Assembly: GCF_004138135.1 (NCBI RefSeq) | Contig: NZ_RYFD01000020.1 | Span: forward strand, 1-64,000 | DNA: 64,000 nt | Source: Candidatus Oscillochloris fontis | GTDB lineage: Bacteria > Chloroflexota > Chloroflexia > Chloroflexales > Chloroflexaceae | Direction of reading: 5' to 3' | Shown here: one piece after another, positions 10,681-14,524 of the stretch | How positions within the stretch are numbered: the stretch's first letter is position 1 | Layout of the letters: every line of letters begins with the position of its first letter | Made by a program: the position numbers and the translations under genes | The notes under the pieces: model-generated | Seen by the model: only the letters and a program-made list of their open reading frames with translations | Told to the model about the DNA's origin: nothing | Database searches by the model: none

Positions 10681-12153
<1,473 letters not shown>

Positions 12154-12207
12154 TCAGGTTCCTCCGTAGTGGGCGCGCCAACGCTCGCCCTGCGAGTGAT
12201 GAGTTAC

Positions 12208-12292
12208 AAAAAGCCCCCGCGCAATAGAGGGGCGCAGGGGGCAGCGGCGGCAGCTTCTCGGATGTCGGTCGCATCTCTTCGACCCTATTGCG
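12208..12292 (-). promoter_or_regulatory. Structured leader of guaB: terminator with overlapping alternative stem
   Basis: On the minus strand, GCCCCCTGCGC (12242-12232) pairs with GCGCGGGGGC (12222-12213), with one bulged T, followed by five T (12212-12208): an intrinsic terminator before guaB. Upstream, CGCAATAG (12292-12285) is perfectly complementary to CTATTGCG (12227-12220), which overlaps the terminator's 3' arm. The two pairings exclude each other. A GGTCG/CGACC hairpin (12284-12267) sits immediately after CGCAATAG. This is the architecture of an attenuator or riboswitch; I cannot match it to a known class. Confidence 0.6.
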
Positions 12293-12317
12293 TACAGGTA
12301 CCGAAGATGTGTCCGGT

Positions 12318-12346
12318 ACTATACCCCGCGATGCGCGGATCGTCAA
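12318..12346 (-). promoter_or_regulatory. Sigma-70-type promoter of guaB
   Basis: On the minus strand, TTGACG (12346-12341) and TATAGT (12323-12318) are separated by 17 bases. Transcription should start near 12311, giving a leader of about 157 nucleotides. Confidence 0.75.
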
Positions 12347-12450: not shown

Positions 12451-12485
12451 GCGGTAGAGACGGCCCGCCGGGCCGTCTCTACCGC
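12451..12485. repeat. Perfect 35-bp palindrome in the folD leader
   Basis: Seventeen-base arms (12451-12467, 12469-12485) surround a single C. The outer GGTAGAGACG/CGTCTCTACC matches the TAGAGACGCAA palindrome family, but the centre is GGCCCG/CGGGCC. There is no T-tract. Confidence 0.8.
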
Positions 12486-14448: not shown

Positions 14449-14524
14449 TGGAGCCAATGCGGGGGCTCGAACCCCGGACCTGCTGTTTACGAAACAGCTG
14501 CTCTACCAACTGAGCTACATTGGC
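14449..14524 (-). tRNA. tRNA-Thr (anticodon CGT)
   Basis: A full cloverleaf is readable on the minus strand: acceptor GCCAATG/CATTGGC, D arm GCTC...GAGC, anticodon stem GCTGT/ACAGC with loop TTCGTAA (anticodon CGT, reading ACG), T arm CGGGG/CCCCG with loop TTCGAGC, discriminator T, and a genome-encoded CCA at 14451-14449. Confidence 0.97.

Follow-up and report, generated by a model that had tools for sequence, protein, structure and literature searches.

A putative guaB attenuator conserved across Chloroflexales and a possible GTP-sensing mode of its action

Introduction

The pyrBI attenuator of E. coli senses UTP and contains U-rich pause regions. It is coupled to the ribosome: behind the promoter of a nucleotide biosynthesis gene, a leader ORF runs through an intrinsic terminator, and no antiterminator hairpin is involved. 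The leader of guaB in the order Chloroflexales resembles it in having a promoter, a candidate leader ORF that crosses an intrinsic terminator and no antiterminator hairpin, and here too the pathway nucleotide could set the speed of RNA polymerase. It has been reported that a translating ribosome close behind the polymerase represses intrinsic terminators, and that a terminator within the first 100 bp of a coding sequence is spared except where, as in pyrBI, a pause lets the ribosome catch up (PMC4824070).

Three other systems are useful for comparison. In S. aureus, guaB is controlled by a guanine riboswitch (PMC2858708). The guaB genes of Chloroflexales likewise appear to be under a transcription-controlling leader RNA, although this leader does not have the purine aptamer, a known Rfam class, of the guanine riboswitch. 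In the HMP-PP (thiS) riboswitch, the terminator has a conserved sequence and belongs to a single pathway (PMC6478431), and the same can be said of the guaB terminator. Finally, attenuators of the trp/ilv type share with the guaB leader the combination of a leader ORF and a terminator. A literature search of incomplete coverage found no report of guaB attenuation other than by the guanine riboswitch, and nothing useful on mapped transcript ends in Chloroflexus. Chloroflexota branch deeply and are a large phylum ecologically, yet little is known of how they regulate nucleotide synthesis.

The guaB locus of Candidatus Oscillochloris fontis

The window, which here means the whole stretch of 64,000 nt that was analysed, comes from the 4.46-Mb genome of Candidatus Oscillochloris fontis. 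Among the named genomes of the collections, the one closest to it is that of an uncultured Oscillochloris sp. (G001, CAIRFY010000581.1). The features of its guaB locus are as follows.

10681-12153, minus strand: guaB, encoding IMP dehydrogenase of 490 aa (ORF)
12131-12274, minus strand: candidate leader ORF of 47 codons with its AUG at 12274, crossing the terminator and overlapping the guaB start; no good Shine-Dalgarno site
12154-12311, minus strand: guaB leader RNA of about 158 nt, its 5′ end predicted from the -10 box
12208-12212, minus strand: U tract of the terminator (T5), read from the sequence
12213-12242, minus strand: hairpin of the intrinsic terminator, with a C-rich 5′ arm and a G-rich 3′ arm; conserved and guaB-specific
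12220-12227, minus strand: octamer CTATTGCG, in the loop and 3′ arm of the terminator
12276-12307, minus strand: hairpin predicted by folding at the 5′ end of the leader (ucuucgg...cgaaga); sequence not conserved
12285-12292, minus strand: octamer CGCAATAG, complementary to 12227-12220; judged incidental
12318-12346, minus strand: guaB promoter of the sigma-70 type, TTGACG-17-TATAGT; nearly all relatives have the same promoter, including some that have no terminator

The promoter consists of a -35 box TTGACG (12346-12341) and a -10 box TATAGT (12323-12318) separated by a 17-nt spacer, and it matches the consensus at 10 of 12 positions. From the -10 box, transcription is predicted to start at about 12311. 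The terminator hairpin GCCCCCTGCGCCCCTCTATTGCGCGGGGGC (12242-12213) has a folding energy of -18.8 kcal/mol, and a Shine-Dalgarno sequence, GGAGG, stands between T5 and the guaB start at 12153. An earlier note on this DNA had given coordinates for the terminator stem and for the two octamers, all of which were correct on re-reading. The gene on the other side of the guaB promoter, folD, is divergent. Thus, the terminator can meet only guaB transcripts begun upstream on the minus strand, and it cannot belong to an upstream gene. Its exact pattern occurs once in the entire genome.

Several other elements were noticed in the window. A perfect 16-bp inverted repeat, GCGGTAGAGACGGCCCGGCGGGCCGTCTCTACCGC, lies at 12451-12485 between folD and the guaB promoter. 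The promoter spacer (12340-12324) holds a short dyad, CCGCGcatCGCGG; that of L013 likewise has CCCCGCgcaagGCGGGG, and such dyads, which are possibly operators, are common in several genera. Further away, the window holds a tRNA gene on the minus strand (14452-14524), and a 16S rRNA gene reaches into it with its 3′ end (1-70).

Conservation of the promoter and the terminator

The upstream regions of guaB were collected from genomes of the order Chloroflexales. A promoter like TTGACN-17-TATAGT followed by a terminator was found before guaB in 40 leaders from 17 genera, among them Oscillochloris, Chloroflexus, Roseiflexus and Kouleothrix. Across the order, these terminators range from -12 to -24 kcal/mol and end in 4-7 U. 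When aligned, they share gCCCC(C)UGCGC, a variable loop and GCGCGGGGGUUUUUU; the inner stem CUGCGC is conserved in sequence, and the loop varies in both sequence and length. In this alignment, 95% of the cells are paired. The covariation score of the stem was 0.282 versus 0.215; none of 500 shuffles reached the observed score, which was also above that of slid versions of the alignment. A promoter closely followed by a terminator is rare elsewhere: in a background set of 864 kb, made up of the window and related genomes, a terminator within the next 180 nt follows just one strong promoter of 28 apart from that of guaB.

The terminator is also close to exclusive to guaB. A covariance model searched over 82 genomes found the guaB leader in 38 of them at E < 1e-3; since the model was built from the same leaders, their recovery is by construction, and what carries information is the lack of other loci. 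Matches outside guaB at this threshold were a handful (G012:C958, G039:C7, G003:C24 and a few at 2e-4 to 1e-3), and no further clear loci that would make up a regulon were seen in the 82 genomes. Upstream of guaA, purA and pyrG, a promoter followed by a terminator was found in 0 of 68 regions. Judged from these comparisons, the guaB leader is probably a transcription attenuator, conserved across Chloroflexales and with a terminator essentially specific to guaB, which supports the term attenuator used in the earlier note. Some kind of conserved conditional attenuator probably stands before guaB in most genera of the order, the conditionality being what we infer; it would probably lower guaB transcription when guanine nucleotides are abundant.

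The arrangement has exceptions within the order and counterparts outside it. Genera g4, g12 and g21 have no terminator before guaB, and g12 and g21 keep the promoter, which leads straight into the gene. In families f2 and f3 (Herpetosiphon-like), a different terminator is found near guaB. Outside the order, genome G151 has a promoter, a short leader and a terminator before guaB, and two genomes of f19 have a terminator immediately before the Shine-Dalgarno sequence. In L090 and L093, also outside the order, an AUG just 5′ of the terminator that precedes the Shine-Dalgarno sequence opens a frame that passes through the terminator and is in frame with guaB.

The distance between terminator and gene bears on whether the promoter and the terminator might instead form a separate small RNA gene, with guaB served by another promoter downstream. 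Such a gene would fit L007, L008, L012, L015 and L065, in which 210-260 nt lie between the terminator and guaB. In most genomes, however, the distance from the U tract to guaB is just 19-75 nt, which leaves little room for a promoter, and the body of the RNA is not conserved. Moreover, the same kind of promoter in g12 and g21 runs into guaB with no terminator between. A small RNA gene is therefore highly improbable.

Leader sequence and alternative pairing

The leader of the window and those of 13 relatives have no match to any Rfam family, and the matches below threshold are at chance level. The earlier note likewise could not match the leader to a known class, and known riboswitch classes, including those for purine, PRPP and ppGpp, were rejected on this ground. 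From promoter to terminator, the leaders measure between about 22 and 170 nt, and no alignment is possible across genera, so that an aptamer common to them is unlikely. A new shared aptamer was rejected for the same reasons, some leaders having just 22 nt there, and also because the terminator loop is variable. In folding, the leader of the window is no more structured than its shuffles (z 0.02), and the upstream parts of all 40 leaders have a mean z of -0.74 that is driven by a few of them. Covarying hairpins were seen within genera, namely a 5′ hairpin in Chloroflexus and hairpin 2 in g5. In L007, L008, L009 and L012, a hairpin lies between the 5′ end and the terminator in which the pairing is kept and the sequence is wholly changed (for example CCAGGGU/ACCCUGG and GCCACGG/CCGUGGC).

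A riboswitch could still be imagined whose aptamer is embedded in the terminator, like that of the HMP-PP class, or in lineage-specific leaders. In its favour, a conserved terminator goes with a single metabolic gene, and covarying 5′ hairpins are seen in Chloroflexus and g5. Against it, there is no Rfam match in the window or the 13 relatives, leaders of different genera are unalignable, and the loop of the guaB terminator varies in length and sequence, unlike the conserved terminator loop of the HMP-PP class (PMC6478431). Such a riboswitch is quite improbable. The earlier proposal of ligand control is thus not supported, with no shared aptamer visible and no antiterminator pairing enriched.

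That proposal rested on two mutually exclusive pairings in the leader of the window. The 8-bp complementarity itself is real: CGCAATAG at 12292-12285 pairs perfectly with CTATTGCG at 12227-12220. The terminator loop of the window is 3 nt longer than in congeners, and both the octamer and this extension are missing in the five congeners. Of the shuffles, 2.1% contain a match of at least 8 bp (p=0.021 for the window); among the 40 leaders, 2 do, which is about the expectation. More generally, complementarity of the leader to the 5′ arm and loop of the terminator is not above that of shuffles (mean z +0.33, n=40; p=0.32 for the window), and no conserved or enriched antiterminator pairing was found among the 40 leaders. 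In a model of truncated transcripts, the probability of the 8-bp pairing is 0.53 for an RNA ending at 12220 and drops to 0.006 once three more nucleotides have been added. The pairing is favoured only until RNA polymerase enters the 3′ arm, and the terminator is predicted to beat it by about 9 kcal/mol. A two-state RNA switch by this pairing was rejected because it is confined to its own genome, not enriched and energetically the loser. Of the features that the earlier note had proposed to follow in the guaB leaders of relatives, therefore, the terminator is conserved and covarying and the 8-bp pairing is not conserved.

What is conserved is also what an RNA-binding protein might recognize. 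Such a protein would bind the terminator or a few bases before it and work the attenuator with no role for translation. The CUGCGC inner stem and the terminator are conserved and the upstream leader is not, and some genera have just 22-30 nt from the transcription start to the terminator. In g5 and g11, the block GGCGCACGAYGNNGTCGCCCC ahead of the terminator hardly varies, but the corresponding block differs between genera. Furthermore, a terminator confined to guaB would give the protein a regulon of one member, and there is no candidate protein. On balance, protein control is rather unlikely. As an observation in its own right, a nearly invariant GGCGCACGAYGNNGTCGCCCC stands just before the terminator in leaders L007, L008, L009 and L012.

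Another alternative is that the terminator works at a fixed efficiency, merely lowering guaB expression or discarding early transcripts with no regulation at all. It would agree with the finding of no conserved sensor or antiterminator and with the fact that g4, g12 and g21 live with no terminator. However, such strength (-12 to -24 kcal/mol, with a tract of 4-7 U), kept order-wide in the terminator of one biosynthetic gene, would be difficult to account for in the absence of regulation; a weaker promoter would do. An unregulated terminator is thus unlikely, and an attenuator that responds to some condition is the preferred reading.

Leader ORFs and the G-rich arm

An ORF starting with AUG crosses the 5′ arm of the terminator in 35 of 40 leaders, compared with 23.7 +/- 2.5 in dinucleotide shuffles, none of 300 of which reached the observed number. 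When weighted by genus, the count is 12.8 of 17 versus 9.4 (p=0.05), and the leader length covered by AUG ORFs gives p=0.002 with the same weighting. An AUG at the predicted +1, that is, in the first nucleotides of the RNA, was found in 3.9 genera versus 1.0 (p=0.014). It lies at +1 to +4 in g5 (MITQTDHAPVAP...), g13, g23 (MVLSKTTVGIRLLIRCHLPIDDWAD...) and g30, and these ORFs may be leaderless. In some Chloroflexi genomes, leaderless genes account for about 5% of genes (PMC3160421). Once GTG and TTG are admitted as start codons, the enrichment of crossing ORFs vanishes, as ORFs arising by chance then reach saturation. Five leaders (L011, L014, L035, L050 and L051) have no AUG ORF across the arm, and most leader ORFs, that of the window included, have no Shine-Dalgarno site. 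In the window, the AUG that is conserved in congeners is AUA, and another AUG would serve there.

Substitutions in the leader ORFs are not concentrated at third positions, so that nothing points to selection on the peptide sequences, and a conserved leader peptide was rejected for this reason. Lack of peptide conservation is what would be expected if only the position of the ribosome matters. An attenuator of the trp/ilv type, working through an amino acid, was rejected as well: unlike that type, the guaB leader has neither a run of regulatory codons nor a competing antiterminator hairpin. The earlier suggestion of peptide control accordingly survives in the sense that AUG ORFs cross the terminator and could provide ribosome coverage, and fails in the sense of a conserved regulatory peptide.

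The second feature is the base composition of the terminator. The 3′ arm of the guaB terminators averages 66% G, versus 37% in 290 background terminators. The G skew is positive in 41 of 41 guaB terminators, which do not amount to 41 independent events because those of f1 and f4 are homologous and the G-rich arm is largely inherited; the background terminators have no skew. By inspection, the terminators of f3 and f19, which are unlike in sequence, also lean towards G.

Attenuation of the pyrBI type requires a ribosome able to reach the 5′ arm of the terminator and a stretch rich in the sensed nucleotide. Crossing ORFs and a G-rich arm could provide the two, and a GTP-sensing mechanism is therefore proposed. 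A short leader ORF, often begun at the first nucleotides of the RNA or close to them, would carry a ribosome through the terminator and relieve termination. With ample GTP, RNA polymerase would move quickly across the G-rich 3′ arm with the ribosome left behind, the hairpin would form and transcription would end near 12208. With scarce GTP, the polymerase would be slowed in the run of G, so that the ribosome might catch up and cover the C-rich 5′ arm; no hairpin would form and guaB would be read. We infer every step of this scheme beyond the conserved terminator. From this analysis, ribosome-coupled GTP sensing like that of pyrBI is the leading but tentative reading, somewhat short of an even chance. 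Its full form, a GTP-sensing counterpart of pyrBI, is more doubtful: the G-rich arm would gauge polymerase speed, the part of the antiterminator would fall to a ribosome that has often started on a leaderless AUG at the 5′ end, and guaB would respond to the end product of its own pathway with no aptamer, protein or conserved peptide. Several leaders have only 22-30 nt ahead of the terminator, too short for much coupling, which counts against the mechanism. Its weakest points are the five leaders that have no crossing ORF and the poor Shine-Dalgarno sites.

Even so, the guaB leader would differ from pyrBI in several respects. It would read GTP and not UTP, and where pyrBI has U-rich pause regions it has a G-rich arm in the terminator. 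Many of its ORFs appear leaderless, and peptide and leader lengths vary widely. It would take proof of the GTP-sensing mode to make the guaB element notable. If this mode is true, it would be a guanine-nucleotide-sensing attenuator outside the riboswitch and stringent-response schemes, and transcription-translation coupling, possibly with leaderless initiation, would be used for regulation in Chloroflexota. The guaB attenuator is a small and directly testable system.

An element of another kind was noticed upstream of pyrG, the gene for CTP synthase. In Chloroflexaceae (L214-L243), a highly conserved long inverted repeat, GTGGGTCGGTTCAACCnnnnGGTTGACCGACCCAC, is found there, lying about 30-65 nt before the start in L231. 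It has no Rfam match, and in most genera it is followed by TTTT and then by GCCTATCGTCTGTAGTG. Its 3′ arm is rich in C, where that of the guaB terminator is rich in G, and the repeat could be an operator, an attenuator or the terminator of an upstream gene.
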